A stretch of DNA of 56,137 nt from an uncultured Opitutia bacterium (lineage in GTDB: Bacteria > Verrucomicrobiota > Verrucomicrobiia > Opitutales > Opitutaceae), in the NCBI GenBank assembly GCA_903896015.1, contig CAITWF010000075.1, positions 1 to 56,137 on the forward strand. The letters run 5' to 3'. Within the stretch, counting starts at the first letter, position 1. The number at the start of each line of letters is the position of its first letter. The notes beneath the pieces were generated by a model. That model made no database searches. It saw only the letters and a list, made by a program, of their open reading frames with translations, and was not told the origin of the DNA. Below, piece after piece: positions 16,317 to 54,197 of the stretch. A program made the translations under genes and the position numbers.

Positions 16317-16363
16317 ACACCCTGAGCACGTTCTCCCCCCATATTGATTCACGAGGTGCAATC

Positions 16364-19300: not shown

Positions 19301-22300
19301 AATAACATTTACCCGGTGATGAGCGCCGACGGCCGTTTCGTCGCTCTGCCCTCGGATGCGGAAAGTAGCGGGGGTCTCGCCTTCGGTGCGACCAATCTGC
19401 TGGCGCTCGACAGCAACAGCGCGCGCGACATCTTCCTCTTCGATCGCCGCATCAACACGCTGCCCAATTCCAGCGCGGTCCCCACCGTCACCATCACGAG
19501 CCCCGGAAACAACGGCACCGCGCTCGTCAACAGCCCCATCAGCATCACTGCCAGCGCGACGACCACGATTGGTGTCGTCGCCAGCGTCCAGTTCTATGTC
19601 AACGGCACCAGCGTCGGGACGAGCACGGTGTTCCCGTATTCGGCGACGTGGACGCCCACCGCCGTCGGCACCTACACGCTCAGCGCGCTCGTCACCGATA
19701 GCTTCGGCAATCTCGGCGTGTCCACCAACGTGACTGTCACGATCAACGCCGCGCCCTCGGTCGGCATCACGCTGCCGTCGGCCAACAGCACGCTCACGTT
19801 TGGCGCGCCGGCCACGTTGACCGTTTCGGCCGTGGCCTCGGCCTCCAACCCCGGCGCAACGATCACCAGTGTGGCGTTCTCCGCCACGGGACCGATCACG
19901 AGTGGATCGACGTCGGCGGTGCAGAGCCTTGGCGCCGGCACGGCCGTGGGCTCGACCTACAGTGTATCGTGGACACCGCCTTCCACGGGTAACTTTACCC
20001 TCACCGCGGTCGCAACCGACAGCGTGGGTACGCCGCAAACCGCGACGAGCTCCGTCTCAGTTGTGGCCGCCAGCAGTGGCGGTGGCGGTGGTGGTGGTGG
20101 TGGTGGTGGCGGCAGCAGCAGCGCCGCGCCGACGGTTAGCCTCAGCCCGAATCCGCCGTCGGGTGTGGCCGTTAACACCCGTGTCACGCTCACAGCAACC
20201 GCGACCGCGGCGGCGGGCTTTACGCTCGCCAATGTTCAGTATTTTGCCAACGGCGTCTCGATCGGCTCTTCGGCAGCGTTTCCCTATACGGTCGCTTGGA
20301 CGCCCACCGCGCTCGGTAGCTATTCGATCACGGCTGTCGCGACCGACAATGCCGGTAGCACGGCCACTTCCGCCGCTGCCACCGTCACGGTCAGCACCGG
20401 CACGGCGCCGTCCATCGCGCTCGTCTCGCCGAATACCGGCACCTCCTACGCCGTCGGCAGCCCCATCTCGCTTTCGGCGACGACCACGCTCGGCGCCGGC
20501 TTGATCGCGAGCGTCGACTTCTTCGCGAACAACGTCGCCATCGGCTCCAAGAGCGCTGGTGCGAGCGGGCAGGGCTCAGCACCGTTCTTTAACCTCACGT
20601 GGACGCCGGCCGCAGCGGGAACCTACGTCTTCACCGCGGTCGTCACCGACACTTCGGGCAACCGCACAACATCGACCTCTTCGACTGTCACCGTCACCGC
20701 CGTCGCCGCGCCCGTCGTCACAATCACCAGCCCGACCTCCGGCACCGGAATCACGGTGAACAAAACGATCGCCATCTCCGCTGCGGCCACCGCCGGCACC
20801 GGTGCGTCGATCGCCTCCGTGGCGTTTACCGCGGGGAATCAGACCCTTGGCACAAGCACGACGTTTCCCTTCTCCACCTCGTGGACTCCGACCGCGCCCG
20901 GCACCTACGTGCTGCGCGCTGTCGCGACCGACAGTTTCGGCACGCAGACGACCTCCAGCACCGTGAGCGTCGTGGTCGGTGCCGGAAGCTCCAGCCTGCC
21001 GTACGTCTACCTTACCTCGGTTCCCACCGGCACCAACGTCGCCGCAAATACCCCCGTTTACGTCGCTGCCAACGCCGGCGATCCCGATGGCGTCGTGACC
21101 AACGTCGAGTTTTACGCCAACGGCGCGCTCATTGGCTCCAAGGCCGCCGCGCCCTATGCCATTACGTGGGTTCCCACCGCTGCCACGACCTATTCGATCA
21201 CGGCCATCGTTACCGACGATGCGGGCAACCGCGTCACGTCCACTGCCTCCACGATCACCGCGACCGTGCAAGTCGGCGTTGTGCCGGTCGCCGGGATCGC
21301 TTTCAATAATCCCACCGTCGATGCGTCCGCCTCGTCCACGCCGCTCGCGCTCTTCACGCCCGTCAAGGTCAACTTCGGCTCGCAACTCATCTTCTCCGTT
21401 GGCGCCGTTGATCAGGACGGCTCGATCGCCAACGTGCAGTTCTTTGCCAACGGCACACCCATCGCGACCATTGGCGCCGCTCCTTACTACACCACTTACA
21501 CGCTCAATACCCTGAGTGATGTCACCTTCACCGCTCTCGTCACCGACAACTCTGGCAATGCGATCTACACCACGCCGATTCTGGTCAGCACGCAGCCCGC
21601 TGATCCCACCGGCAATCTGGTGACCCTCGTCAGCCCGCTTAACGGTTCCACCTACACCGTGGGCGGTCAGATCATCTTCAGTGCGACGCATAATTTCGGC
21701 ACCGCTAATCCCCCCAAGATCGATTTCTACGTCAACGGCAGCCAGCTCACCACGGTATCGGCACCCGCGTCGGGCAGCGCTTCGGCCCCCTACCAGTATA
21801 TCATCGGTCTCACGCGTGCCGGCACCTACGACATTCACGCCGTGCTCCGCGTCGGCAACACCACTATCGTTTCCACGCCCGCGCGCATCACTGTCACGTC
21901 GAACGCCGCCCCGACGGTCAGCATCACGAGCCCAACCAATGGCGGCTCCTACGTCGTCGGCACCTCCCTCTCGATCGCTGCGGCGGCCACGTCCACCACC
22001 AGTACGATCCAGAACGTGCAGTTCTACGTGAACGGCAACTCCCTCTCCACGGTCACCACCGCGCCCTACGTCGCGGCGTGGAACCCTGGTTCCCCTGGCA
22101 TCTACACCCTGACCGCTTCCGTCACCGATGCCGCCGGCAACCAGACGCTCTCGACTCCCGTCACCGTTACCTACACCGGCAATGTGCCGCCGAGTGTCGC
22201 GCTCTCGACCCCGTCCGTCGGGGCGCGGCTCGTTGCCGGCTCCGCCGTCTCGCTCGTGGCCTCGGCCTCCGATATCGACGGCAACGTCACGAACGTCCGT

Positions 22301-24451
22301 TTCCTCGCCAACGGCGTCGTCGTCGGCACCGGCGCCACCGCGCCGTACACTTCGACGTGGACGCCCACGGCGGCGGGCATCTATTCCGTGATCGCCCAGG
22401 CGACGGACAACTCTGGCAACGTCAGCTCCTCCACCGTTGTCGCCGTCACCGTCACCGCCTCCCGTCCGCCCGCCGTCAGTCTCAGCGCCCCGACGAATGG
22501 CACTGTGTTCAGCGCCGGCGCGAGCACCGGTCTCGTCGCCACTGCGACTGTCACTGACAGCCCGATCGCTAAGGTGCAATTCCTCGCGAATGGCAACGTC
22601 GTCGGCTCCGCCACCGCGCAGCCCTACGCCTCGACGTGGACACCCACTTCTCCCGGCACCTACACCGTCTCCGCGCAGGTGATCGACAACCTCGGCAACG
22701 TCGCCAACTCCGGCTCCGTCACTGTCACCGTTCTCGCCAACCAGCCGCCGATCGTCGCGATCACGTCGCCCGCCAACGGCTCTGTCGTTCGCGCCGGCTC
22801 GTCGACAACCCTTAGCGCCACCGCCTCCGATCCGGACGGATCGATCGCCAGCGTGCAGTTCTTCGCCAACGGCGTCGCGCTCGGCTCGCCGATCACCACC
22901 CTCACGACCAACGGCTACCGTACGCAATGGACCCCCGCCGCCGAGGGCATCTACACGATCGCCGCCACCGCGATTGATAATTCGGGGGCCGCGACCACGA
23001 TCACTTCCACGGTGCTTGCCGTCAGCGCGCAAAGCGGCGGTGACACCGTTTACACCGGCACGTTCTTCGGCCTGGGTGAAAACGGCAAATTCTCGGTCAT
23101 CAACAGCGGCAACAAGACCGCCGCGTTTATCGGCTATTCCACGGTCGGCGCCGGCAAAGTCTACTTCTACCCCGGCCTCACGGTCGATGCGTCGCACGGC
23201 TTCACGCTCACCGATGCCACAGGCAAGGTCCTGCTCGCCGGCGCGGTCAACGACACCGCCGCCACGATCACCACGCTCGACGGCGCGCCCGTCACGCTGA
23301 TCGGTATCCTCTCGTTCCCGTCCGGTGTGAGCGTCGCGACTGGTTACTACACCGGCAGCCTCGGCGGACGCGCTTCAAGCCAGCTTGCCGCAATCGTCGG
23401 CCCGGACGGTTCGATCATCATCGTCGCGATCGACGGGACCACCCGCACGGCCGGTGCCGGCACGGTCGATAGCACCGGCACCTTCCGCAATCTCGCCGCG
23501 CTCGGCGGCGGTGTGTTCAACGGCAAGGCCGATCCGCTCACCAACTTCCTCTCCGGCACGCTCACGGGCCCGCTCGCGGGCAGCCTCATGGGCGCGGTCG
23601 AGTCGGGCGTCTCATTTAGCGACGGCTTCCTGCGCAACCTCTCTTCGCGCGGTGCGGTCGGCACGGGCAACAACGTCCTCGTCGCCGGCTTTGTCGTCGG
23701 CGGCACCACGACGAAACAGGTCCTCGTCCGCGCGATCGGCCCGTCGCTCACGCAGTTTGGCATCACCGGCGCGCTCGCCGATCCGCAGTTGAAACTCTTC
23801 GGCGGCGCCAATGGCACCGCGCAGATCGCCTCGAACGACAACTGGGGCGGCGACGTCGCGATCTACAACGCCTCGAACCTTGTTGGTGCCTTCCCGCTCT
23901 CGCCGACGAGCCTTGATGCCGTCATCCTCGCGAAGCTCGCCCCCGGCAACTACACCGCGCAGGTCAGCGGCGTGAACAGCGGCACCGGCCTTGCCCTCGT
24001 CGAACTTTACGATGTCGACAACCCTACGCCCTATTCGTCGCAAAAGGTGCTGAACATCTCCACACGCGCCGTCGTCGGCACCGGCCAGAGCCGCCTCCTT
24101 GCGGGCTTCGTGGTCAGCGGCACCACCGCGAAAAAAGTCCTCATTCGCGCCGTCGGCCCCACGCTTGGCACGCCGCCGTTCAACATCCCCGGCGTCCTCT
24201 CCGATCCATATCTCCGCCTCATTCGCAACTCCGACCAGCTCGTCATTCGCGAAAACGACAACTGGGAGGTGGGCAACGACGCCTCCCTTGTGAGCGCCGC
24301 CACGATAGGTGCCGGCGCCTTCCCGCTGGCCGCCGGCGGCAAGGATTCCGCGATCCTGATTGCGCTGCCGCCCGGCAGCTACAGCGCGGAAGTCAGCGGC
24401 ACCGGCACCGCGACGGGCATCGCGCTCGTCGAAGTCTACGAAGTGCCCTGA
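16364..24451 (+). CDS. Giant exported protein with beta-propeller, twelve Ig-like repeats and duplicated C-terminal module
   Basis: 2695 residues. The start at 16364 has a good Shine-Dalgarno (GAGGTG, 5 bases away) and gives a signal peptide ending AAAHA; an alternative ATG at 16313 overlaps the pilQ stop. Segments in order: N-terminal beta domain (about 28-150); GGSGYT(S/T)xP repeats (about 155-305); a CARDB-like domain (about 316-455); a TolB/WD-type propeller with repeated [16 protein letters not shown] and DIFxFD (about 480-1032), interrupted near 860-925 by two more GGSGYT units; twelve Ig-like repeats of about 95 residues (about 1040-2220) marked by xVQFFANGxxxGxxxxxPY and TWTPxxxGxY; a beta domain (about 2226-2425); and two copies of a module (about 2425-2555 and 2562-2695) with VGTG...LLAGFVV, KxVLxRAxGP and ENDNW. 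A poly-Gly linker is encoded at 20078-20113. It ends at a terminator, so it is probably the last gene of the pil operon and may be an adhesin or secreted substrate; that role is inferred. Confidence 0.85.
20078..20113 (+). repeat. GGN trinucleotide microsatellite encoding twelve Gly
   Basis: Twelve consecutive Gly codons, seven of them consecutive GGT (20087-20107), form an in-frame simple repeat between the second and third Ig-like domains of the giant protein. Length change would be in multiples of three and would alter linker length without shifting frame. Confidence 0.95.
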
Positions 24452-34790: not shown

Positions 34791-36131
34791 TTATAGCGCC
34801 CCGATCGCTTCGTCGAGGACGGCGAGCAAGAAGTCGGCGTCGGCTTGCGTGATGTTCATCGGCGGGGCGAAGCGGATTGTCTGACCCCAGAGGCCGCCTT
34901 TGCCTAGGAGCAGGCCGAGTTCGCGAGCATTCTCGACGGCCTGTGCGCACTCTTCCTTTCCGGGCGTCTTTGTCGCGCGATCCTTCACGAATTCGATCCC
35001 GAGCATCAGGCCCTTGCCGCGCACGTCACCGATGACTTTATGTTTTTCCTTCAGCTTGTTCAGGCCGGCGAGGATGTAGTTGCCGAGCTTGAGGCAGTTT
35101 TCCTGGGTCTTTTCCCTTTCGATCACCTCGAGCACGGCGGTGCCGATCGCGCTTACGACGGGGTTGCCGCCGAAGGTGTTGAAGTGAACTTTCTGCGCCA
35201 TGACCGCAGCGATCTTCGGCGTGGTGACGACGGCGGCGAGGGGCGCGCCGTTGCCGATACCTTTGGCCATCGTGACGATGTCGGGGATAACGCCCTGCGT
35301 CTCGAAGCCCCAGAAGTGCGTGCCGGTGCGGCCGAAGCCGGTCTGCACTTCGTCGGCGATGCACACGCCGCCGGCGGCGCGGACGTGTTCGTAGGCGTGC
35401 TTGAGGTAGCCCTGCGGAAACTCTACGAAGCCGCCCACCCCCTGGATCGACTCGGCGATGAACGCGGCGACTTTGCCGGGGGTGGCGTAATTGATGAGAT
35501 CCTTGACGTCGTCGGCGTATTTGCGGCCTGCGTCGGGATCGTCGTAGCCGTATTGGCCGCGGTAGGGATAGGGCGCGATCGCGTGATGGACGCCGAAGGA
35601 GTGAGGCACGTTGAATTTCCACGTGCTGTGCGCGGTCAGGCCCATCGAGGCGGGGCTGCCGCCATGGTAGGCGTTCCGGAGCGCGATGGCGTCGTAGTTG
35701 CCGGTGTAGAGCCGCGCCATGAGCATCGCGAGATCGTTGGCTTCGGAGCCGGAGTTGACGAAGTAGCAGACCTTGAGATCGCCGGGCATCTTTGAGGCGA
35801 GTTTCTCGGCGAACTCGGCGATGTTCGGCTGAAGATAGATCGTGGTCGAGTGCTGGAGCGTTTGATTCTGCTTGTTTGCTGCGGCGACGACGTGCGGGTG
35901 GCAGTGGCCCACGCTAATCGTCACGATGCCGCCAAGTCCGTCGAGGTAGCGTTTGCCGGTGTCGTCCCAGACATACTGCATGCTGCCCTCCACGATCATA
36001 ATCGGCTTCTTGTAGTAGAGAAAGAGACCGGGGTTGAGGTATTGCTTGCGCGTCGCGAGCACATGCTCGGCGGAGGGGCCGGAGTATTTCGCGGGCTGGT
36101 GCGCGGTAGGCGGGAGGGGGATTGATTTCAT
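34791..36131 (-). CDS. Class III aminotransferase, probable beta-alanine/3-aminoisobutyrate:pyruvate transaminase (AGXT2-like)
   Basis: A 446-residue class III PLP enzyme. Family marks: NSGSEAND (126-133), AYHGGSPAS (154-162), [12 protein letters not shown] (259-270), the PLP Lys290 in TMAKGIGNG, and FGGNPV further on. The protein is like AGXT2 and beta-alanine:pyruvate transaminases. It is the last of five minus-strand genes with preA, mmsA, hydA and an NCS1 permease, so it likely converts beta-alanine to malonate semialdehyde (or 3-aminoisobutyrate to methylmalonate semialdehyde), supplying the substrate of MmsA. The substrate is inferred from context; glyoxylate is a possible acceptor. It starts 51 bases after the permease gene. 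Confidence 0.88.
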
Positions 36132-36182: not shown

Positions 36183-37691
36183 CTAGGATATGGGCGTGAG
36201 CTTGCGAAGAACGAGGTAGGCAGTGAACGCCGCACCGAATCCGACGAACCACGCGTAGTTGTACAGCCCGAGGAGAAGCGGCGGCATGTGCGCGCCGTCG
36301 ATGACTTTCACGGTGACCAGAAAACCCGGGAGGCTGGGCAGGATTCCGGCGAGCAGCGCCACGATCGCCGCGATGCTGAAGCCGTGCCGGTAGGAATACT
36401 CGCCGCCCGGATTGTAGAGCCCCAGGACGTTGAGCCAGCGGCCGCGCACGACGAAATAGTCCGCGATCATGATGCCGCCGATCGGACCGAGCAGACCGCT
36501 GTAACCGACGAGCCACGTGAAGATATAGCCCGTGGGATCGGCGACGAGTTTCCACGGCATCATCAAGATACCGATAAACCCCGTGATGTAGCCGCCGACA
36601 CGGAACGAGATTTTCCTTGGTGCGAGGTGGGCAAAGTCGTTGGCGGGCGAGACGACGTTGGCGGCAATGTTGGTCGCGAGCGTAGCGATGCAGAGCGCGA
36701 CCATCGCGATTACAAGCAGACCTGGATTTTTGAACTTCGTCAGCACGTCTACGGGGTCCCAGATCGTCTGGCCGTAGATGATCGTGGTGGCCGACGTGAC
36801 GGCGACACCAATGAATGCATAAAGCGCCATGGTCAGCGGCAGCCCGAGCATCTGGCCGACGACCTGGTCGCGCTGGGTTTTCGCGTATCGGGAGAAGTCG
36901 GGGATGTTGAGCGAGAGCGTCGCCCAAAATCCGATCATGCCGGTGAGCGCGGGAAAGAAGAAAGCCCAGAATTGTCCCGCCTTCGGTTGGCCGGGATCGA
37001 AGGCGGACGGTTGCGAGAGGATCGGGCCGAAGCCGCCGGCGGAGCGATACGCCCAGAAGAGCAGCAGCAGGCCGAGCGCGATCAGGAGCGGAGCCTTGAT
37101 GTTGAGGAGCACGCGGATCGTCTCGATGCCGCGATAGATGACCCACATGTTGATGCCCCAAAAAAAGAGGAAGCAAAGAAACTGGGCACCGGTGATGCCG
37201 AGGAAATTATCCGTCGAGCCAGTCGTGAGCGCCGGCCAGAACACGCCGAGGATTTTGTAAATCGCATTGCCGCCGATCCACGCCTGGATGCCGAACCAAC
37301 CGCACGCGACGAACGCGCGGAGCAGTGCGGGAATGTTTGCACCGCGCGTGCCGAACGAGGCGCGGCACAAGACGGGAAACGGAATGCCGTATTTCGTGCC
37401 GGCGTGGGCGTTGAGGATCATTGGCACGACCACGATCAAGTTGCCGAGGAAGATTGTGAAAATCGCTTCCCACCAATTCATGCCACCGCCGATGAGTGAG
37501 GAGGCGAGCATGTAGGTCGGGATGCACGCCGACATCGAGACCCAGAGCGCGGCGAAACTAAGCAGGCCCCACTTGCGTCCGCTCGCCGGCACCGGCGCGA
37601 GGTCGGCGTTGTAGAGGTGCGAATGCTCGATGATCGAAAGATCGAGTTCGACGTCGGGGGCGTTGTCGCGGAGTCCGGGATCAGTGGGCAT
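36183..37691 (-). CDS. NCS1-family nucleobase:cation symporter
   Basis: A 502-residue inner-membrane transporter with about twelve hydrophobic helices and the NCS1 opening motif NADLAPVPASGRKWG (about 29-43), then FAALWVSMSACIPTYMLAS and the substrate-site segment ACGWFGIQAWIGGNA (about 130-145). NCS1 carriers such as Mhp1, uracil and allantoin permeases take up hydantoins, pyrimidines or purine derivatives with Na+ or H+. The location within the reductive pyrimidine series points to uracil, thymine or dihydropyrimidine uptake. It is separated from hydA by a 90-base spacer that holds an inverted repeat. Confidence 0.92.
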   Translation of the reverse strand: MPTDPGLRDNAPDVELDLSIIEHSHLYNADLAPVPASGRKWGLLSFAALWVSMSACIPTYMLASSLIGGGMNWWEAIFTIFLGNLIVVVPMILNAHAGTKYGIPFPVLCRASFGTRGANIPALLRAFVACGWFGIQAWIGGNAIYKILGVFWPALTTGSTDNFLGITGAQFLCFLFFWGINMWVIYRGIETIRVLLNIKAPLLIALGLLLLFWAYRSAGGFGPILSQPSAFDPGQPKAGQFWAFFFPALTGMIGFWATLSLNIPDFSRYAKTQRDQVVGQMLGLPLTMALYAFIGVAVTSATTIIYGQTIWDPVDVLTKFKNPGLLVIAMVALCIATLATNIAANVVSPANDFAHLAPRKISFRVGGYITGFIGILMMPWKLVADPTGYIFTWLVGYSGLLGPIGGIMIADYFVVRGRWLNVLGLYNPGGEYSYRHGFSIAAIVALLAGILPSLPGFLVTVKVIDGAHMPPLLLGLYNYAWFVGFGAAFTAYLVLRKLTPIS

Positions 37692-37781: not shown

Positions 37782-39164
37782 TCAAAAATGGCTTGGGTTC
37801 CTTTTGAGGAATTGGCCGCGGCCGAGTTTGCCGGTGAATTTGCCGTCGCGCGCGGCGACCTGGCCGCGGACGGTTACAACGCTCGCACGCCCCTCGAGCG
37901 GCCAGCCCTCGAACGCGCTGTAGTCGACCGCCATGTGCTGGGTCTTCACCGAAATTTTTCCGCGATACTTCGAATCGAAGACAACGAGGTCGGCATCGGC
38001 GCCCGGCTGAATCGCGCCTTTCTTTGGGAAAAGATCGAACTGCTTCGCGACGGCGGTGCTCGCGACGTTCACCATCGTATGGAGATCGATTTTTCCGCGC
38101 TTCACGCCGTAGGTGTAGAGCAGATTGATTCGCTCCTCGAGCGAAGGGATGCCGTTGGGGATCTTCGTGAAATCCGTTTTACCCATCGGCTTTTGCTTTT
38201 TGAAATCGAACGGCGCGTGGTCGGTGGCGACGGTGTTGACGAGTCCGTCGCGTAGACCGTTCCAGAGCACGGACTGGTTGCGGGCGTCGCGCAGCGGCGG
38301 CGACATCACATATTTCGCGCCTTCAAACTTCGGCTTCTCGGCGTAGGTTTTGTCGAGCGTAAGGTATTGGATGAGTGTCTCGATGCCGACGCGCACACCG
38401 CGTTGCCGCGCGGCGATCGCTTGGTCGAGGGCTTCTTTGCACGAGAGGTGGACGATGTAGGTCGCGGCGCCGGTGAGTTCCGCGAACGTCATCAAGTGGT
38501 GCACGCCCTCGGCCTCGACGGACGGCGGGCGGCTCTCGTGATGCTGGCCCGGATCGGTTTTGCCGGCGGCGAGGAGTTCCTTGCAGCGCTCAGCTACGAG
38601 CGTCTCGTTTTCGCAGTGCGCGGTGACGACTACGCCGAGTTCCTTCGCAAGCTTGAGCGTCCGGTAGAGTTCGGTGTCGTCGATCCCAAACGCGCCCTTG
38701 TAGGCGAGGAAGATTTTAAACGACGCGATTCCGCGCTTCACGATTTCGCGGAGTTGGACTTCAGATTTTTCGTCGAACTTCGTGACGCCCATGTGAAACG
38801 AGAAATCACACGCGCTCTTGCCGACGGCCTGGCTCATCCAGAGTTCAAAGGATTTCAGCGCGTCGTCTTGGCGCGCGGGGCAGCACATCTCGATCAGGGT
38901 CGTCGTGCCGCCAACGAGGGCGGCCTGTGAGCCGGTCTCGTACGTGTCCTTCGAAAAGGTGCCCATGAAAGGCAGGTAGATGTGGACGTGCGGATCGATG
39001 AAGCCGGGGAAGACGTATTTGCCTTTCGCGTCGATCACCTCGGTGCCAGCGGGCGCGGAGAGGTTGCGATCGATCTTGGTGATCGTTTCGTTCTCGCAAT
39101 AGATGTCGGCGACGTAGCGTGAATCGGCGGTGATGATTTCACCGTTTTTGATGAGGAGGGGCAT
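37782..39164 (-). CDS. hydA: Dihydropyrimidinase (D-hydantoinase family)
   Basis: A 460-residue zinc amidohydrolase that opens 5,6-dihydrouracil or dihydrothymine to N-carbamoyl-beta-amino acids. All metal ligands are at the canonical positions: His59 and His61 (DPHVHIY), the carboxylated Lys150 (ASFKIFLAYKG), His183 (TAHCEN), His239 (IVHLS) and Asp315 (ATDHAP). The ATG at 39164 (MPLLIKNGEI) was chosen because it gives this numbering and the usual length; an in-frame ATG 27 bases upstream adds unconserved residues. It follows mmsA by 93 bases and precedes the permease by 90. With PreA upstream, the dihydropyrimidinase role is more likely than a hydantoinase role. Confidence 0.95.
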   Translation of the reverse strand: MPLLIKNGEIITADSRYVADIYCENETITKIDRNLSAPAGTEVIDAKGKYVFPGFIDPHVHIYLPFMGTFSKDTYETGSQAALVGGTTTLIEMCCPARQDDALKSFELWMSQAVGKSACDFSFHMGVTKFDEKSEVQLREIVKRGIASFKIFLAYKGAFGIDDTELYRTLKLAKELGVVVTAHCENETLVAERCKELLAAGKTDPGQHHESRPPSVEAEGVHHLMTFAELTGAATYIVHLSCKEALDQAIAARQRGVRVGIETLIQYLTLDKTYAEKPKFEGAKYVMSPPLRDARNQSVLWNGLRDGLVNTVATDHAPFDFKKQKPMGKTDFTKIPNGIPSLEERINLLYTYGVKRGKIDLHTMVNVASTAVAKQFDLFPKKGAIQPGADADLVVFDSKYRGKISVKTQHMAVDYSAFEGWPLEGRASVVTVRGQVAARDGKFTGKLGRGQFLKRNPSHF

Positions 39165-39181
39165 GGCTGAAGAATTTGGCC

Positions 39182-39246
39182 CGCGATTCACGCAAGTGGG
39201 CGCGAATGTGAGAAGAATCTGTTCGCGTTCATTCGCGTGATTCGCG
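39182..39246. repeat. Intergenic inverted-repeat element, copy 2
   Basis: It has the same plan as 37703-37770: a decayed left arm (39182-39208) and a right arm (39222-39246) that is base-for-base identical over 25 bases to 37746-37770. In both copies AGGTTT follows within a few bases. It lies between mmsA and hydA. Confidence 0.88.
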
Positions 39247-39257
39247 GGAGGTTTGTC

Positions 39258-40748
39258 TTATTTCTTCCACACGTCGCCGACGTCGCCGCCGAACCAGCGC
39301 GAACTGACGACTTTTTGCTGCGTGTAGAACTGGATGCTTTCCTTCCCCTGGATGTGGAGGTCGCCGTAGAACGAGTCGTCCCACCCGGTGAAGGGGAACA
39401 TGGCCATCGTGGCGGGCACGCCGACGTTGACGCCGACCATGCCGGCTTTGACGCGCATCGAAAACTCGCGCGCGGCGCGGCCATTGTTGGTGAAGATCGC
39501 GGCGCCGTTGCCGAATGCGGACTTGTTCGCCTGCTCGATCGCGGCGTCGAGGTCATCCATGCGCATAACGTTGAGCACCGGCCCAAACACTTCCTCACGG
39601 GCGAGCGTCATATTGTGCTGCACGCCATCGACGATGGTGGCGCCTAGATAAAAGCCTTTCGGTGCATCGGAAATTTTCACGTCGCGACCGTCGGCGATCA
39701 GTTTGGCGCCTTCTTTCTCGCCGGTGGCGAGAAGGCTTAAGACGCGATCGCGATGGGCAGCGGTGATGACCGGACCCATGTCGGGCTGCGCGGCGCGATC
39801 GGTCGGGCCGACTTTGATCGCTTGCGCGGCCTTCACGAGATCGGGCAGCACGCGCTCGGCGGCGGCGCCGACGGTGATCGCAGTGGAGCCGGCCATGCAG
39901 CGCTCGCCGGCGCAGCCGAAGGCGGCAGTCGTGAGGTTTTCGACGGTCTTGCCGACGTCGGCGTCCGGCATGACGACGATGCAGTTCTTCGCGCCGCCAT
40001 TGGCCTGGACGCGTTTACCGTGTTTTGTGCCGGTGTCGTAAATGTATTTCGCGATCGGCGTGGAGCCGACGAACGAGATGGCCTTCACCTTCGGGTGCGT
40101 CAGCAGGCCGTCGACGACCGCACGCCCGCCGTGGACGATGTTAAACACGCCTTTTGGCAGGCCGGCCTGTTCAAGCAACTGGCCGAGGAGAATCGCGGTG
40201 AGCGGGACTTTCTCGCTCGGCTTGAGAACGAATGTGTTACCGCACGCGATCGCGGAAGGATACATCCAGAGCGGCACCATCGCGGGAAAGTTGAACGGCG
40301 TGATGCCGACGCAGACGCCGAGCGGCATGTTGATCGTTTCGCAATCGACGCCGCGCGCGATATTCTTGAGGGAGTCGCCGAAGAGCAGGGTAGGGATGCC
40401 GCACGCGTATTCGACGTTTTCGAGTCCGCGGAAAATTGAGCCGCGAGCCTCGGCGTGCGTCTTGCCGTGCTCGCGCGAGACCGTGCGGCAGAGGAGATCG
40501 AAATTTTGTTCAATGAGTTGGCGGTATTTGAAGAACACGCGGGCACGCTCGACGGGCGGCGTATCGCGCCACGCAGGAAACGCCGTCTGCGCGGCTTCGA
40601 CGGCGGCACTAACCTCAGCGAGACTGCCGGCGGGACACTCGGCGATGATGTCGCCGGTCGAGGGATTGAAAACGGGCGTGGTGGCGCCCGAGGGCGTCTG
40701 CCATTCGCCGCCGATGAAATTGGGGCAGGGGGTGAGCGTTTGATTCAT
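39258..40748 (-). CDS. mmsA: Methylmalonate-semialdehyde dehydrogenase (CoA-acylating)
   Basis: A 496-residue aldehyde dehydrogenase that turns malonate semialdehyde to acetyl-CoA, or methylmalonate semialdehyde to propionyl-CoA, with NAD and CoA and loss of CO2. It opens with the MMSDH-type NFIGGEW; the catalytic Cys284 is in GCAGERCMAGS. At the place where ordinary aldehyde dehydrogenases keep the general-base Glu, this protein has Asn250 (QANGGAKN), a diagnostic MMSDH feature. NITPFNFP-like PFNFPAMVPLWM is near 151-162. Its position between preA and hydA fits the last step of reductive pyrimidine degradation. Confidence 0.95.
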   Translation of the reverse strand: MNQTLTPCPNFIGGEWQTPSGATTPVFNPSTGDIIAECPAGSLAEVSAAVEAAQTAFPAWRDTPPVERARVFFKYRQLIEQNFDLLCRTVSREHGKTHAEARGSIFRGLENVEYACGIPTLLFGDSLKNIARGVDCETINMPLGVCVGITPFNFPAMVPLWMYPSAIACGNTFVLKPSEKVPLTAILLGQLLEQAGLPKGVFNIVHGGRAVVDGLLTHPKVKAISFVGSTPIAKYIYDTGTKHGKRVQANGGAKNCIVVMPDADVGKTVENLTTAAFGCAGERCMAGSTAITVGAAAERVLPDLVKAAQAIKVGPTDRAAQPDMGPVITAAHRDRVLSLLATGEKEGAKLIADGRDVKISDAPKGFYLGATIVDGVQHNMTLAREEVFGPVLNVMRMDDLDAAIEQANKSAFGNGAAIFTNNGRAAREFSMRVKAGMVGVNVGVPATMAMFPFTGWDDSFYGDLHIQGKESIQFYTQQKVVSSRWFGGDVGDVWKK

Positions 40749-40821: not shown

Positions 40822-41955
40822 TTAGCCTTTCGACAGCGCGTCGGATTGCTTCACGAACTCGTCGCCGGTCCATTCGCCGTCACTCTTTACGACCTTAGAT
40901 GCAGTCGCGATGGCGGCGGCTTTCTGCGCGGCTTTGCGGGCGGTTTGTTTCGCGACGAGATCGGCGTGCGTAGTGAAGTAGGGCAGGCTCTTGCCTTTGA
41001 AATCGGCGAGCGTCTCGAATTTGTGCTTCGCCATAAAGGCGAGGAGTTGGTCCTGCATTGGCTTCACGCATTCGTAGCCGAACTTCATTACGCCGGTGCA
41101 GACTTGCACGGTGTCGGAGCCGAGGAGGATGAATTGCGCGGCGTCTTCGCCGGTCTCCACACCGCCGAGTCCCGAAAGCGAGCGACCGGGGAATTCCTTT
41201 TGGATCATGGTCGCAAGTTCCATCACCATGCGGAGGGCGATCGGTTTGACGGCTTTCGACGAGTAGCCGCCGGGCGTGGTGTAGCCCTCGACACATGGAT
41301 CGGGTCGGAGCGTGTCGAGGTTGATGCTCGTGACGCTGCGGATCGTGTTGATCGCGCTGAGGCCGGTGGCACCGCCGCGGAGCGCGGCGCGGCCGGGTTC
41401 CTCGATGTGCGTGATATTGGGCGTCATTTTTGCCCAGACGGGGAGCTTGGTGGCGGACTTCACCCAGCCGCAGACCTCCTCGAGAATGTCGGGGTCCTGG
41501 CCCATCGCGGCACCCATCTTGCGTTCGGGCAGACCGTGCGGACACGAGAAGTTGAGTTCGAACGAATCGACGCCGGCGGCTTCGCAGCGCTGCACGAGTT
41601 CGATCCAGCGGTCCTTGTTATATTCCTCCATGATGGAGGCGATGAGCGCGCCGGCGGGCTGACCGTCCTTGCATTTTTTGAATTCGTCCTCCCACAAGTG
41701 AAACGGCCGATCGCTGATCAGTTCGATGTTTTCCCAGCCGATGACTTCGCCGCTGAGCGCGTGGAGCTTGGCGTAGCGCGGGGTGACGTTGACGACCTTT
41801 GACGCGTCGAGGCTGACGGTCTTGGCGATGACGGCGCCCCAGCCTTCTTTGAACGCGCGGTTAATGACGCTCAGGTTGGTGCCCGGAGGGCCGGAGCCGA
41901 TGACAAACGGGTTGGGGAGCTTGAGGCCGTCGACGGTCGTGACGAGTGTAGGCAT
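40822..41955 (-). CDS. preA: Dihydropyrimidine dehydrogenase catalytic subunit PreA, lacking the ferredoxin domain
   Basis: A 377-residue FMN-binding TIM-barrel protein that reduces uracil or thymine at the 5,6 double bond. The barrel runs from about residue 3 to 305, with the catalytic-loop Cys138 in ELNFSCPHG, GQDPDILEEVCGWV (152-165) and the FMN-phosphate segment SGLGGVETGEDA (261-272), all as in mammalian DPD. Usual PreA is about 411 residues and ends in a domain with two 4Fe-4S clusters; here residues 340-377 are an Ala/Lys/Asp-rich tail without any CXXCXXC motif. No PreT flavoprotein gene lies in the window. It is the first gene of the minus-strand pyrimidine series and diverges from the amidohydrolase gene. 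Confidence 0.93.
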   Translation of the reverse strand: MPTLVTTVDGLKLPNPFVIGSGPPGTNLSVINRAFKEGWGAVIAKTVSLDASKVVNVTPRYAKLHALSGEVIGWENIELISDRPFHLWEDEFKKCKDGQPAGALIASIMEEYNKDRWIELVQRCEAAGVDSFELNFSCPHGLPERKMGAAMGQDPDILEEVCGWVKSATKLPVWAKMTPNITHIEEPGRAALRGGATGLSAINTIRSVTSINLDTLRPDPCVEGYTTPGGYSSKAVKPIALRMVMELATMIQKEFPGRSLSGLGGVETGEDAAQFILLGSDTVQVCTGVMKFGYECVKPMQDQLLAFMAKHKFETLADFKGKSLPYFTTHADLVAKQTARKAAQKAAAIATASKVVKSDGEWTGDEFVKQSDALSKG

Positions 41956-42140: not shown

Positions 42141-43400
42141 ATGACCTTGCTGCTTGAGCCGCGGCGCACGATCGCCGATTTGATGGAATTACGCGCCCTC
42201 ACCGGTAACGAAAACGGTGCGCAGCGCGTGGCGTTTACGCCCGTCTGGGTGGCGACTCGCGCATGGCTCCGTAAAAAACTCGAAGCGATTCCGGGCTTGG
42301 AAATGCACACGGACGCGGCGGGCAATTTCTGGGCGACGCTGCGCGGCGAGTGCGGGGAGGCGCTGTTGATCGGTGGGCACATGGACTCGGTGCCGAATGG
42401 CGGCTGGCTCGATGGCTGCCTTAACGTGCTGGCTGGCGTGGAGATCTTGCGGCGTCTTCACGCGCAGTATGCCGGCCGGCCACCCGTGACGGTCCGACTC
42501 GTCGATTGGGCGGACGAGGAAGGCGCGCGGTTTGGGAAAAGTTTGTTCGGCTCCTCCGCGTGCGCGGGCTCGCTCGCCATGGACGAAGCGCGCGGGCTGA
42601 AGGACAAGGGAGGCATCACGCTCCCCGACGCGCTGGCGAACGTAGGCGTGCAGTTTCAACGGGTGAAGGACAGCGGCGTGGAACTAAAAAACGCTGCGGC
42701 CTACCTCGAACTGCACATCGAGCAGGGCCCGGTGCTGCTCGATCTCGATTTGCCCCTCGGCGCGGTGCTGGGAACCTTCGGCGTTGAGCGCCACGCGATC
42801 ACCTTTCACGGGCAGGCTGCGCATTCAGGCAGCACGCCGATGAACCGCCGCAAGGACGCGTTGCTCGCCGCCGCGAAGATGAGCGAGGAGATTTACCGGA
42901 TCGCCGCGCGCAGCGGCAACGGCGTCTGCACGATCGGTTCGTGCACGACAAAGCCGGGGATTGTGACGAGCGTCGTCGAGGAATGCCGCATCACCCTCGA
43001 CCAACGCCATCTCGATTCAGCGTCGCTCGCGGCGATGTTGCGCGAGGCGAGGGAAGCGAGCGAGCGCTTCGCACGCGAGGGTAACGTGCGCGTCGCGTGG
43101 GAACGCCTTTGGCAGATTGATCCACGGCCGTTTCATCCGGAATTGATCGCGCTGTGCGACGAGGCGATCATGGAAACCTGCGGCGTGTCGCACCGATTGC
43201 CGTCGGGCCCGCTGCACGATGCGGCGGAAGTCTGCGGCGCGGGCGTGCCGACGGTGATGATGTTTGTGCAGAGCCTCCACGGAATTTCCCACAACAAGAT
43301 CGAGGACACGAAGGAGGCGCACCTCGAAGCGTGCGTCATGGCCTTCGACCGGCTCGCCGACAAGGCGATCGCGTGGATCCACAATCCGCTTCGCCGATGA
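42141..43400 (+). CDS. M20-type amidohydrolase, probable beta-ureidopropionase
   Basis: A 419-residue metal-dependent hydrolase of the N-carbamoyl-L-amino acid hydrolase/allantoate amidohydrolase/beta-ureidopropionase family. Metal-site motifs: GGHMDSVPNGGWLDG (His80, Asp91), DWADEEGARFG (Glu126/Glu127), LELHIEQGP (His192) and SHNKIEDT (His near 384). The small dimerisation domain lies between about 212 and 328. Divergent from preA and next to a dihydropyrimidinase series, it most likely cleaves N-carbamoyl-beta-alanine to beta-alanine, CO2 and ammonia. Allantoate or carbamoyl-amino acid hydrolysis cannot be excluded by sequence. Its stop overlaps the next start by 4 bases (ATGA). Confidence 0.92.
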   Translation: MTLLLEPRRTIADLMELRALTGNENGAQRVAFTPVWVATRAWLRKKLEAIPGLEMHTDAAGNFWATLRGECGEALLIGGHMDSVPNGGWLDGCLNVLAGVEILRRLHAQYAGRPPVTVRLVDWADEEGARFGKSLFGSSACAGSLAMDEARGLKDKGGITLPDALANVGVQFQRVKDSGVELKNAAAYLELHIEQGPVLLDLDLPLGAVLGTFGVERHAITFHGQAAHSGSTPMNRRKDALLAAAKMSEEIYRIAARSGNGVCTIGSCTTKPGIVTSVVEECRITLDQRHLDSASLAAMLREAREASERFAREGNVRVAWERLWQIDPRPFHPELIALCDEAIMETCGVSHRLPSGPLHDAAEVCGAGVPTVMMFVQSLHGISHNKIEDTKEAHLEACVMAFDRLADKAIAWIHNPLRR

Positions 43401-49439: not shown

Positions 49440-52400
49440 TTACTTCACCGCGGCAAGTTCCGCGACGATGAGTTCCTTTACGCGCGACTTCGCGTCAGCA
49501 AGCGGGAGTTCGCCCTTGTCGAGTTTGGCGAGGAAACCCTTTTGCGCGACGTAGTCCTTGTTCGCGACGCCGGCCTTGCTCTGGAGCATCCGCCACGCTT
49601 TGCGGCGCTCGACGGCGAAGAGGACCATCTGGCGCGACACGGCGTAGTATTTCACTTTCCCGTGCTCCTCGGCCTTGATGTAGCAGCCGAAGTTCGTGAC
49701 GAACGAGCGATGCTTCGGATCGAAGACGCGGCGGTGGATCACGTCATCCTGCGTGATGAAGTGTAGTTGGTCGTCGAGGAGCGTGAGCTTGACGGTTTCC
49801 TCCTCTTTGATCGATTTCACGTGCTTGCGGAAGCGGCCTTCGGTGAGCGCCCAGTGGGCGACGGTGAAATTATACTCGGTGCCGTCGGTCGCGTATTTGG
49901 TGCGCCACCAGTCGCGATCGAGCGTCGGGTTGCCCTTGAGATCGAAGGCCTCCTGAGCGGTCTCGCCCTTGCGCGGGTTGAAGACGAATTCCGGCATGCC
50001 GCGCGCATCGCGCACGAGCTTCGCTTGATCGGCGCTCATGTTGTCGGCGACGGCATGCTCGGGCTGGCAGGTCGTGTAACTCTGGAAGAACGCGGTGCCG
50101 CGATATTCGAGTCCGTCGAGCAGCGCTTTGTAGAGCTTGGCCGCATTCGCCATCGAGACCTGCGCGACGAACGGCGAGCCATGGCCGCCGGTCAGGATTT
50201 CCGAGACGTTTTTCTTTTCGATCAGCTTGCCCTGCGAGGCGACGCCGAACTGGTTCATGTCGTAGCCGCCGAGCATCGTGGACGAATCGGAGTTCTGGCC
50301 GCCGGTGTTGGAGTAGACCTGCGTGTCGAGCATGAGCATCTTCACGTTCGGGCGGTTTTGCAGGACGACCTTTGAGACGTTCTGGAAGCCGATGTCGCCG
50401 AGCGCACCGTCGCCGCCGATGACCCAGACTTTCGGCAGCTCGCGGATTTCCTGGTCGGTCATGAGCGCGTCGTCGAGATGCGTGAGGGTGAAATACTCGG
50501 ACTCACTCGCGATATTGTCTGATCGATCGAGCAGCGCGTCGGCCATGCGCTCGGGTCCGACGGAGCGGCGTGCGTGGTTGACGATGATTGACTCAGCCAT
50601 GAGCCAGGAAATCGTCGAGCCGTCCTGAAAGAGCGAGTTCATCCACGGATAGGGATGCGGGTTCGACGGCGGCGTGGAGCCGTAGACGGTGTTGCAACCC
50701 GTGCTGGCGCCCATCATCATCACGGACATGCCGTTTGCGCGGCGGCCGTCGATGGTCTGGAGTTCCTTGTGGTTGAAGGCGTCTTGCTCAAGCACGGCGG
50801 CAAGTCCGCTCACGAGCTGCTGGTCGTCGATGGTGCCGTGCGTTGCCTCGTAGTCGGCAATGCGCTTGGCGGTGTCGGCATCGTTTTCGCCGCCAAGGTT
50901 CACAACGAGATGCGCAAACGTCTTCTTGAAGAGTGCGTATTGCTGTGGGCTGCGGGCCTTGAGCGCGGCGATCTTTTCGGCGCCCTCTTTTGCGAGGCGC
51001 GTGGCTTTGGCGCGGAGACGGTCCGCTTTCTTGTGATAGATCGGCCGCATGTAGGCCTCGGTCACACTGGCGACGGAGCGGAGGATACTTTTCTCCCCGC
51101 AGCCGGCGCACGCGCCGTCGCCGGAGACGAGCGCCTCGTAATTGCGGCGGACCATGAGGTGGTTGCGCAGCGCAGCTTCGCGGGAATTGGCGGCCTCGCC
51201 GTCGTTATAGAGGCCGAGGAATTTCTGCGGCGTATCGGGCAGCAGCCGTGAGAACACCTGGGCGGTGGTGAGCTCGGCGTTGAGCTCCTCGGTCTCACGC
51301 GTCATGCGCAACGCGTCGTGATCGCCGCAGACCTGCACGCACTCGCCGCAGCCCTTGCAGAGATCGGAGACGAAGATGGAGAACAGCCCGCCGGCGCCCG
51401 CTGTCTTCGCCTCGAGCGAGCGGAAGATCGCGGGGACGTTGGAGTAGGAGAGCGGGAGTTTGCTGATGATGTTGAAGAACTCGACGCGGCCTTTTTCAGA
51501 AACGCTCGTGAGCGCGGTGACTTCATCGCTGACGATCTGCTTGAAAGGGAGGTTGGTCTTCGCTTTTACGGACTCGTTCATCCGGGCGCGGGCGCGCTGC
51601 TCGAGGCCGGCGATCTCGGCGCCGAAGGCCTGACGGTCGGCGAGACTCGTGACATAATTGTTCACCGCGGTTTTCAGCACGACGGCTACTTCCTGTGCGG
51701 TGTTCGGCAGGGCGGTGTCGGGGCACGCGGTGATGCACTCCATGCACTGCGTGCAATTTTCCGCGATGTAGACGGGCGTCTCGCGGCGGGCCACGTATTT
51801 GGACTGTGTAGCGCCCGTGCCAGCGGCCATCACGCCGACGGAGGCAAACGCACCCGCGGGCTGGTGGTATCCGAGACCCGCGCGGAATTCACTGTCGAAC
51901 TTGGTGAGCGACTGCACGGGCGCGCGCAGCGGCTGCGCGGGGGGCGCGGGGATCGAGCCGCAGCCGGAGTCGGCGCAGCCGGCCGTCGGGATGATGTGAT
52001 GTTCGCCGATCGGCTTGAGTAGCGGGTTGCGCATCGAGGAGCGGTCGGGCTCGTCGTTGCGACCGATCTTGATTTCTACGACGCGCGAGAAGCCCTGCTC
52101 CATCACTTCCATGTTCGACTTCACGACGGCTTCGCCGAAGCGGCCGAATTTTTTCTCGTATTGCTTGCGGACGACTTTTGAAAACTGCTCCTCGGAAATT
52201 CCGAACGTCTTCAAAAACGGCGAAACGCGGAAGAACGCGCCGAGAAAAGAATTTCCCTGCATGCGCAGCTGGAGTTCGGCCTGCGTGGTGGCGTTGCGCG
52301 CGATCTCAAAGCCGGGAAGAATGAAGACGCGGATGTTGTTTTCCTGAACGAACTGGCGGTATTTCGCAGGGATGCGCTGCCACGCGACCTCGGGTGAATC

Positions 52401-54197
52401 GCTCGACTCCCAGACGAGCGCGCCGCCTTTCTTCAGACCGTCGAGCGGATTCGTGTGCGTGAACGCCTTCGGATCGCAGCAGAGCACGACATCGACGTGG
52501 TTCAACTCGCAGTTCACCTTGATGCGCTCGGGCGCGACCGTGAGGTAATAATTTGTTGGCGCGCCCTTTTTCTCGGAGCCGTATTTCGGGTTGGCCATCA
52601 CGTTTATCTTTTCAACGAGTTCGCCGTCGGCGTCGTAGGTGGGATTTGATTCAGAGATAAATTTGCCGAAGTCACCGATGATCGAGCCGAGATTTTTTCC
52701 CGTCGTGATCATGCCCCAACCACCAATCGAGTGAAAGCGCACGGCGATGGCTTTGTCGGGGAGGAGTGAGGGGGTGTCCTTGCTGATGACGGCGTAAGGA
52801 TGATCGACGCCAAGGACGAAGAACCCCTCGCCGTCCGCTGCGCGCTTGCCGTCCTTGCGGGCACTCGCGCCGGTGGCGAACTCATATGCGCCGAGCGTGT
52901 GCTCGGGGCGAAAATCGCGCGAGCCGATGCCATAGGCGCCGCGGAAGAGCCGTGGCGTCTCGGCCGGCGTGAGGGCGGGGAGCACGCCGCCGAATTTAGC
53001 GACCTCATTCGCCTTGCCGAGCGCGACGCGGATGTCGCGCGCGAGGGGATTATCGCCGGCGAGACCCTCATCTGTGCGCTCAAGGATGATGACGTTTTTC
53101 TTGCCGCGCAGTGCGTTGATGACGGCGGCCTCAGGGAACGGACGGATGACGTTGACGTGGATCGAGCCGACCTTTGCGTTGCGCTGCTCGCGCAGGTAGT
53201 CGCACGCGGCCTCGATGTTGTCGGCGGCGCAGCCGAGCGAGACGAATACCGTGTCGGCATCCTCCGTTTTGTATTCCTGAATAAAACCGTAGTGCCGGCC
53301 GGTGAGCTTGCCGAACTCCGCGTAGGCTTCGGCGAGCATCGGCAGGATGAACTCGTTAAAATTATTCCGGCGCGCGACGACGCCGTTCATGTGGTGCTCC
53401 TGATTCTGCACCGGCCCGAGGAGGATCGGGTTTTTGAGATCCATCATCTGCGGGACGCGGCGGCGCTTCGGGCCGAAGAGCTCGCGCTGCGCGGGGGTGG
53501 GGCAGTCGATCTGATCGTCGCAGGCACCGAGAAACTCGCGGAGCAGCTCGGCCTCGGGCGCGAGATACATGCGCTCGGAATGCGTGGTGAGCATGCCGTC
53601 CTGGATGTTCATGCCGGGATTGAGCGAGAGCTCGTTCACCTTGCGCAGAATGATCGCCTGATCGGCGGCTTGCTGGGCGTCTTTCGACATGAGCATCGTC
53701 CAGCCGACGTCGAGTGCGGCGTAGAAATCGTCGTGGCCGCAATGGACATTGAGTGCGTGCTTGGTCAGCGCGCGCGCGCCGATTTCGAGGACCATCGTCG
53801 AAAGCTTTCCGGGCGCATGATAGTATTGCTCCATCGCGTAGACGATGCCCTGGCCCGAGGTAAAGTTGACGGTGCGGCGGCCCTGCACGGCGTAGGACGT
53901 GGCGCCGCCTTGCGCGGCGTGTTCGCCCTCGGTCTCGACGGCGACTTTTTGCTGGCCCCAGACGTTGAGCTCACCGGCCGCGTAGGAGCCCTGATAAATT
54001 TCGCCGCCCTCGGTGCTCGGCGTGATCGGGTAAAATACACCGCCTTCGGTGATGCGCGTCTCGACGTATTGCGTGACGAGATAGTTGCCGTTACACGTGA
54101 CGCGGAGGCCAGGATAACGCGGCTTGGTGTGCGGTGGGACGGAAGTCCCGGGCGGATTGGACGCGGAAACCTTTTCACCAGTGGCGGAGTTGCTCAT
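49440..54197 (-). CDS. nifJ: Long pyruvate:ferredoxin (flavodoxin) oxidoreductase
   Basis: A 1585-residue 2-oxoacid:acceptor oxidoreductase with all PFOR domains fused: the pyrimidine-binding domain (FYPITPSTEGGEIYQ, about 56), a transketolase-C-like domain, the gamma domain (IGGWGMITTGKNLG, about 493), a first 4Fe-4S site (CTQCMECITACPDTALP, about 816), a second (CKGCGECVQVCG, about 948), and the TPP domain with CAGCGEKS (about 1030), VIGGDGALGDIGF (about 1262) and the distal Cys in TTCQPEHA. Ordinary PFORs are about 1170-1230 residues. The extra length is mostly a spacer between the two ferredoxin-type sites and a charged insert after CAGCGEKS (about 1050-1160). It likely makes acetyl-CoA and reduced ferredoxin from pyruvate. 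A terminator follows. Confidence 0.93.
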   Translation of the reverse strand: MSNSATGEKVSASNPPGTSVPPHTKPRYPGLRVTCNGNYLVTQYVETRITEGGVFYPITPSTEGGEIYQGSYAAGELNVWGQQKVAVETEGEHAAQGGATSYAVQGRRTVNFTSGQGIVYAMEQYYHAPGKLSTMVLEIGARALTKHALNVHCGHDDFYAALDVGWTMLMSKDAQQAADQAIILRKVNELSLNPGMNIQDGMLTTHSERMYLAPEAELLREFLGACDDQIDCPTPAQRELFGPKRRRVPQMMDLKNPILLGPVQNQEHHMNGVVARRNNFNEFILPMLAEAYAEFGKLTGRHYGFIQEYKTEDADTVFVSLGCAADNIEAACDYLREQRNAKVGSIHVNVIRPFPEAAVINALRGKKNVIILERTDEGLAGDNPLARDIRVALGKANEVAKFGGVLPALTPAETPRLFRGAYGIGSRDFRPEHTLGAYEFATGASARKDGKRAADGEGFFVLGVDHPYAVISKDTPSLLPDKAIAVRFHSIGGWGMITTGKNLGSIIGDFGKFISESNPTYDADGELVEKINVMANPKYGSEKKGAPTNYYLTVAPERIKVNCELNHVDVVLCCDPKAFTHTNPLDGLKKGGALVWESSDSPEVAWQRIPAKYRQFVQENNIRVFILPGFEIARNATTQAELQLRMQGNSFLGAFFRVSPFLKTFGISEEQFSKVVRKQYEKKFGRFGEAVVKSNMEVMEQGFSRVVEIKIGRNDEPDRSSMRNPLLKPIGEHHIIPTAGCADSGCGSIPAPPAQPLRAPVQSLTKFDSEFRAGLGYHQPAGAFASVGVMAAGTGATQSKYVARRETPVYIAENCTQCMECITACPDTALPNTAQEVAVVLKTAVNNYVTSLADRQAFGAEIAGLEQRARARMNESVKAKTNLPFKQIVSDEVTALTSVSEKGRVEFFNIISKLPLSYSNVPAIFRSLEAKTAGAGGLFSIFVSDLCKGCGECVQVCGDHDALRMTRETEELNAELTTAQVFSRLLPDTPQKFLGLYNDGEAANSREAALRNHLMVRRNYEALVSGDGACAGCGEKSILRSVASVTEAYMRPIYHKKADRLRAKATRLAKEGAEKIAALKARSPQQYALFKKTFAHLVVNLGGENDADTAKRIADYEATHGTIDDQQLVSGLAAVLEQDAFNHKELQTIDGRRANGMSVMMMGASTGCNTVYGSTPPSNPHPYPWMNSLFQDGSTISWLMAESIIVNHARRSVGPERMADALLDRSDNIASESEYFTLTHLDDALMTDQEIRELPKVWVIGGDGALGDIGFQNVSKVVLQNRPNVKMLMLDTQVYSNTGGQNSDSSTMLGGYDMNQFGVASQGKLIEKKNVSEILTGGHGSPFVAQVSMANAAKLYKALLDGLEYRGTAFFQSYTTCQPEHAVADNMSADQAKLVRDARGMPEFVFNPRKGETAQEAFDLKGNPTLDRDWWRTKYATDGTEYNFTVAHWALTEGRFRKHVKSIKEEETVKLTLLDDQLHFITQDDVIHRRVFDPKHRSFVTNFGCYIKAEEHGKVKYYAVSRQMVLFAVERRKAWRMLQSKAGVANKDYVAQKGFLAKLDKGELPLADAKSRVKELIVAELAAVK

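Follow-up and report, generated by a model that had tools for sequence, protein, structure and literature searches.

A short PreA without a ferredoxin domain is a conserved variant of dihydropyrimidine dehydrogenase in Verrucomicrobiota

In the pyrimidine-degradation (pyd) operon of an uncultured Opitutaceae bacterium (GenBank assembly GCA_903896015.1), PreA, the FMN-barrel subunit of dihydropyrimidine dehydrogenase (DPD), is encoded without its two-cluster ferredoxin domain and without its partner PreT. Comparison with related loci and genomes shows that this short PreA is a genuine form of the enzyme, conserved across many loci, and many soil and water bacteria of the Verrucomicrobiota carry the stripped-down form. 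Its active-site residues and its place in the operon suggest a working uracil reductase that takes electrons from a general donor, a reading to which we give a probability of about 0.72. With neither an iron–sulfur domain nor a partner protein to bring electrons, short PreA is probably powered more simply than the better-studied enzymes of its kind, among them the human one that degrades a common cancer drug. The gene lies in a stretch of 56,137 nucleotides, here called the window (contig CAITWF010000075.1, positions 1 to 56,137), on which an earlier note had commented from the sequence alone.

Results

The FMN barrel and active site of PreA are retained

Short PreA (40822–41955, minus strand; 377 aa) matched the NCBIfam PreA model NF006183 at 386 bits (cut-off 335), although the match spans profile positions 3–338 of 422 only. 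A Pfam scan found a DHO_dh barrel, a weak Dus match (PF01207, 21.7 bits, cut-off 20.4) and no Fer4 domain in the protein. The closest solved structure by sequence was pig DPD (E 6e-66). Residues K45, N76, E78, N135, S137, C138, H140, K176, N203 and T204 are identical in pig DPD, where they align with K574, N609, E611, N668, S670, C671, H673, K709, N736 and T737, respectively; we take these ten positions to be active-site or FMN contacts. All ten uracil/FMN-site residues are invariant in 75 of 75 aligned sequences. The earlier note had called the FMN barrel and the catalytic Cys138 intact, and this holds: short PreA has the barrel with the PreA/DPD active-site residues, and Cys138 (codon 41542–41544, minus strand) aligns with pig DPD Cys671, the proposed active-site acid. 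Other cysteines conserved among the short forms (C95 in 68/81, C124 in 74/81, C162 in 71/81 and C296 in 47/80) were considered as a new cluster site and rejected, as their conservation is too variable.

An AlphaFold2 model built on 75 sequences had a mean pLDDT of 81.6 and a pTM of 0.83, with values of 56–73 in the last blocks of the C-terminal tail. Structure searches, including Foldseek, returned pig DPD as the best fold match (Z 36–39 over 335–345 residues), followed by dihydroorotate dehydrogenases (DHODs; Z 32–33, barrel only). The last helix of the model (pLDDT 56–73) overlies DPD residues up to 997, and the Fe-S domain of pig DPD comprises residues 848–1025 (PMC8097209). This predicted placement inside the Fe-S span may echo structures on which the predictor was trained, and we give it little weight.

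A conserved tail replaces the iron–sulfur domain

Profile comparison with hhalign showed homology to ordinary PreA up to residue 333 and none beyond. The remaining 44 residues (334–377; 40825–40956, minus strand) stand in place of the ferredoxin domain and consist of an Ala/Lys-rich helix followed by a conserved terminal module (residues 354–377; 40825–40896, minus strand), in which D359, W362, Q370, S371 and L374 are invariant in 75 sequences. The 24-residue consensus of this end has a single match in the window's genome, short PreA itself. The earlier note had described a 38-residue Ala/Lys-rich tail in place of the 4Fe-4S domain. The replacement is confirmed, but the tail is 44 residues long, and only its first half is rich in Ala and Lys, the last ~24 residues being the conserved module. 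Whether the tail is left over from the C-terminal part of the Fe-S domain was tested by profile comparison, with a negative outcome.

To survey the variant, we used 81 loci, comprising the window and the best 80 of 436 relatives (479 stretches checked). The full tail was present in 79 of them; one locus (L108) reaches the end of its contig within the tail and another (L063) breaks earlier. No CxxCxxC motif was found in any of the 81 short-form loci. All 34 ordinary PreAs that were read have two such motifs; 28 of them belong to Verrucomicrobiota, and the other six come from plasmid records spread over three further phyla. The eight short forms read alongside have none. Short PreA therefore lacks the C-terminal domain with two [4Fe-4S] motifs, and the frameshift or sequencing error that the earlier note had allowed for as hiding this domain is contradicted by the recurrence of the same end. 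An entire clade shares the tail as a conserved module. It might shield or mould the face of the barrel against which the ferredoxin domain would otherwise sit.

Short PreA forms a separate clade

Two named strains are represented among the 81 loci: Roseibacillus persicicus KCTC 12988 (short PreA at L131:10001–11125) and Luteolibacter marinus NBU1238 (L124:7898–9037), whose genus is now Neoluteolibacter in taxonomy. A match at E ≤ 1e-60 was present in 26 of 150 genomes from the same family, 14 with the short and 12 with the ordinary form, and none of the 26 had both; in one (G108) the short gene is split across two contigs. Across the phylum, 35 of 387 genomes matched: 11 were short (8 of them new) and 24 were others at 35–46% identity, and both Fe-S motifs were present in 19/19 of the latter that were read. 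The counts below refer to 22 short-PreA genomes. A plasmid search yielded matches below 60% identity only (63 records).

In a tree of 63 barrels, all 27 short forms grouped in one clade (UFBoot 100, stem 0.78), apart from the ordinary PreA proteins of the same family, which themselves form a single clade. Rooted with a pair of distant DHOD-like proteins (stem 3.97), the tree places the short clade near the root of the PreA/DPD group, with weak support (72) for its sister relation. One locus titled Magnetospirillum (L059, JANQAI010000005.1) contains an Opitutaceae-like pyd operon with a short PreA at 89%, which reflects either a mislabelled genome or a transfer. The window's genome also encodes two DHOD-like barrels (L002 at C55:56252 and L003 at C55:25232) that are about 23–26% identical to PreA; they share their contig with a PFOR frame (C55:53277) and with a gene of the GltD-like kind.

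PreT is absent from short-PreA genomes

We searched 34 genomes with a PreT query from the ordinary operon of G092. Orthologs at 75–82% identity were found in 12 of 12 ordinary-PreA genomes, the query's own among them (in G027, PreT is split over two contigs), and in none of the 22 short-PreA genomes, where the best match reached 254 bits and 40% identity. This agrees with the earlier note, which had reported PreA without PreT and proposed a genome search for preT-like genes: none was found in the window's genome. At the level of loci, PreT was absent from all 80 named short-form loci, some of which are short or cut, and present in 5/5 ordinary loci fetched first and 6/7 fetched later; one ordinary locus (L167) ends at PreA, its PreT lying on another contig (G067). 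Two GltD-like proteins in the window's genome are 36% and 32% identical to PreT. The one on contig C55 was rejected as a hidden PreT, as its 36% identity compares with 75–82% among PreTs of the family and it passes the cut-off of TIGR01318, a GltD-type model. The other adjoins a 1554-residue frame taken for GltB.

Short PreA and PreT–PreA occupy the same operon slot

Downstream of short PreA, on the minus strand, lie genes for a CoA-acylating (methyl)malonate-semialdehyde dehydrogenase (39258–40748; TIGR01722, 637 bits, cut-off 448.5), dihydropyrimidinase (PydB), which catalyses the step after PreA (37782–39191; TIGR02033, 533 bits, cut-off 393), an NCS1 nucleobase:cation symporter (36183–37691; TIGR00800, 399.5 bits, cut-off 353) and a class III aminotransferase (34791–36131; PF00202), probably a beta-alanine aminotransferase given its conserved operon position. 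A divergent gene on the plus strand (42141–43400; TIGR01879, 279.5 bits, cut-off 204) encodes an M20-family carbamoylase, probably beta-ureidopropionase (PydC), whose position beside PreA is conserved across loci. Short PreA is thus adjoined by the genes of a Pyd operon. The order in ordinary operons is divergent carbamoylase, PreT, PreA, semialdehyde dehydrogenase, dihydropyrimidinase, NCS1 transporter and aminotransferase; short-form operons have the identical order minus PreT, with local gaps and losses in some.

The two forms were intermixed in a tree built on three proteins that flank PreA, taken from 30 loci, and a single clade for the ordinary operons was rejected (AU p 5e-73). Parsimony gave five changes of form, a soft figure, as some nodes are weak (support 28, 36 and 45), and recombination inside the operon may contribute to it. 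These trees indicate that, repeatedly and in the same place, either the PreT–PreA pair took over from the single gene or the single gene from the pair; the outgroup loci, all retrieved by a short-form query, favour neither form as the ancestral one. Because the two modules were exchanged in one slot, which is the strongest evidence for equal function, the single short gene very probably does the job of PreT plus PreA.

Some neighbourhoods depart from this layout. In some genomes, small ORFs lie between PreA and the dehydrogenase gene; they were judged by eye to be of GNAT-acetyltransferase, PIN-like and four-helix-bundle types, which are not redox types, and were dismissed as redox partners. 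The Roseibacillus neighbours include a nitrilase-type hydrolase (L131:7755–8624 in R. persicicus) and an NCS2-type permease, both below model cut-offs, which would fit pyrimidine breakdown; the M20 carbamoylase there is only weakly matched (29%) and farther off. In three loci (L096, L097 and L098, the last cut just downstream of PreA), short PreA lies amid unrelated genes with no other tested pyd gene within the locus, and for L096 and L097 its function is less certain.

No candidate electron donor is associated with short PreA

The earlier note had stated that no flavoprotein or ferredoxin gene is in the window. When 33 selected ORFs (of 134 listed) were scanned against Pfam, PreA was the sole flavin or stand-alone ferredoxin electron-transfer gene among them, so that the statement stands except for a 1585-aa PFOR-type protein with Fer4 motifs (49440–54197, minus strand). 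No recurring redox neighbour was seen in the 13 of 81 loci whose neighbours were read by eye, and frames with ferredoxin motifs occurred in 4/81 short-form loci, one of them being the window's PFOR. Loss of the C-terminal clusters cuts the known path, because in pig DPD these clusters feed the FMN across the dimer (PMC8097209). With no clusters of its own, no PreT in the genome and no recurring redox partner adjoining it, short PreA does need another route for its electrons, as the earlier note had argued.

That note had also pointed to PFOR as a tempting donor, which the genome searches do not bear out. PFOR_II had no match in 5 of the 22 short-PreA genomes (G061, G070, which is a single contig, G125, G041 and G108) and only sub-cut-off matches in four (G054, G211, G310 and G430), and we rejected PFOR as a required donor. 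Among the 12 ordinary-PreA genomes it was absent from one (G049), and three have a PFOR frame on the pyd contig (G025 C110, G021 C10 and G023 C57). As the family also matched in 14/14 control genomes, some of its matches are proteins other than PFOR.

For flavodoxin (PF00258), 10 of the 22 short-PreA genomes, that of the window among them, gave no match and an eleventh (G147) only a sub-cut-off one, which makes flavodoxin unlikely as a general donor. Of its 30 matches, 19 were in frames of at least 453 residues, typical of reductases, and about ten in short frames; some short-PreA genomes thus appear to encode a flavodoxin-sized protein.

For ferredoxins, the dicluster and plant-type families Fer4_7 and Fer2 matched in 12 of 12 short-PreA genomes searched, in frames of at least 152 residues, and four frames that we opened were NuoI-like by eye. 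An argument from these families that small ferredoxins are missing was dropped when the single-cluster family Fer4_13 (PF13370) gave a small ferredoxin in 11 of the 12. Altogether Fer4_13 was found in 20/22 short-PreA genomes (11/12 and 9/10), in 11/12 ordinary-PreA genomes and in 13/14 genomes without a PreA match; G340 and G125 (97% and 91% complete) had none. The ferredoxin search proposed in the earlier note therefore yields a protein that is available but not associated with short PreA. As no redox neighbour recurs and the candidate donors are not associated with the gene, the donor is most likely a general cellular one.

Discussion

Short PreA shares its FMN barrel, uracil-site residues, operon position and neighbours with the NAD(P)H-dependent PreTA (PydA1–PydA2) system, from which it differs by the missing two-cluster ferredoxin domain, the missing PreT with its FAD and NAD(P)H sites, and a conserved tail of its own. 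Clostridial PydAc likewise has no FAD/NAD(P)H part and no PreT-like partner and lies within a Pyd cluster, but it keeps ferredoxin domains (two in the protein, or one plus a separate ORF), of which short PreA has none (PMC7332683). Of the features that define NAD-dependent PreA, short PreA lacks two, and of those that define PydAc it lacks one, so we file it under neither. UacX of uric-acid breakdown has been likened to PydAc (PMC12507026).

Class 1A DHODs share the FMN-only barrel with a catalytic Cys, but identity in structural alignments is 21–24%, and the substrate site and operon of short PreA are of the DPD type. Short PreA is not class 1A: it is closest to PreA/DPD, with UFBoot 100 against two DHOD-like outgroups in the 63-barrel tree, which was built without class 1A and fungal sequences. 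Fungal dihydrouracil oxidase shares the dihydropyrimidine chemistry and gives no sign of Fe-S clusters; unlike short PreA, it runs in the opposite direction with O2 as acceptor and belongs to the class 1A lineage (PMC9585004). Dihydrouridine synthase (Dus) is an FMN enzyme likened to DHOD and DPD (PMC9176250), but it acts on tRNA, and short PreA has only the weak Dus match.

Current annotation hides the variant: 75 of 75 scanned members match NF006183, named 'NAD-dependent PreA', at E ≤ 1e-99. A published PydA survey demanded a ferredoxin domain, a criterion by which short PreA would be left out (PMC7332683). Among the titles and abstract openings of the open-licence literature matches listed, we found no description of an Fe-S-free PreA; the nearest case is the fungal dihydrouracil oxidase (PMC9585004).

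How electrons reach the FMN can be framed as a choice among general donors, of which we rank NAD(P)H as likeliest and ferredoxin as its main rival. By analogy with Dus, in which NADPH reduces the FMN directly and the FMN then reduces a uracil ring (PMC9176250), a general donor, most likely NAD(P)H, would reduce the FMN of short PreA in the first half of a two-step ping-pong cycle. The reduced FMN would then hand a hydride to uracil, with Cys138 protonating C5 as proposed for Cys671, the proton donor of pig DPD (PMC8097209), and the dihydrouracil would go to the neighbouring dihydropyrimidinase. That NAD(P)H acts directly on the FMN is close to an even bet. The fuller picture, of a single-gene, single-cofactor NAD(P)H:uracil reductase without an iron–sulfur cluster or a second flavin, is tentative. 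No NAD(P)H-binding site was identified in short PreA, although two arginines that are clade-specific in the alignment, R206 and R217, are suggestive of NAD(P)H use and only that. We know of no DHOD-family enzyme whose FMN takes electrons from NAD(P)H unaided by another subunit.

A housekeeping single-[4Fe-4S] ferredoxin of the Fer4_13 family, re-reduced by a ferredoxin–NADP reductase or an oxoacid oxidoreductase, might instead dock on the basic tail and reduce the FMN directly. We regard this as possible but somewhat doubtful. The protein is present in 20 of the 22 genomes, the Lys-rich tail could equally dock a ferredoxin, and uracil reduction in Clostridium PydAc is ferredoxin-dependent (PMC7332683); PydAc, however, retains the Fe-S domains that short PreA is missing, and Fer4_13 is as common with ordinary PreA (11/12) or without PreA (13/14) and has no match in G340 and G125, at 97% and 91% completeness. 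A dedicated electron-transfer partner, unrecognised, encoded elsewhere in the genome and bound by the tail, would explain why the tail end is as strongly conserved as a binding peptide, and a reading of neighbourhoods would miss a partner outside the operon. Such a partner nevertheless seems unlikely: dependence on a distant protein would hinder the exchange with PreT–PreA, and the loci gave PreT in 0/80, ferredoxin-motif frames in 4/81 and no recurring redox neighbour in the 13 read.

The exchange with PreT–PreA also argues against a DHOD-like enzyme with another partner substrate, be it a dihydrouracil oxidase or a class-1A type using an organic acid. Fungal dihydrouracil oxidases do belong to the DHOD family and show no sign of Fe-S clusters (PMC9585004), but they relate to class 1A DHODs and short PreA to PreA/DPD, and an oxidase would run against an operon that needs dihydrouracil; we consider this reading improbable. 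Hardly credible is an assembly error or a decaying gene that lost its Fe-S domain by frameshift or truncation, as the same tail ends 79 of 81 loci, those of R. persicicus KCTC 12988 and L. marinus NBU1238 included, the clade has full UFBoot support on a long stem and the active-site residues are invariant. Our main reading thus stays that of a functional uracil reductase served by a general donor.

Described dihydropyrimidine dehydrogenases feed their FMN through Fe-S clusters, and a review lists several possible reasons for the long Fe-S chain with none settled (PMC8097209). If short PreA is indeed a single-gene, single-cofactor NAD(P)H:uracil reductase, the FAD–4×[4Fe-4S]–FMN chain of DPD would be dispensable for the chemistry. 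Lying near the PreA/DPD root, the short form might then keep an architecture that predates fusion to the ferredoxin and GltD-like modules. An Fe-S-free clade that exchanges its slot with the normal pair amounts to a natural experiment, making the question of the chain approachable with one small protein. An Fe-S-free uracil reductase could also serve as a simple tool enzyme for 5-fluorouracil chemistry.

Elsewhere in the window, a protein of 2712 aa that carries nine Big_7 Ig-like repeats (16313–24451, plus strand) adjoins a secretin (14391–16316) and four short ORFs without Pfam matches.
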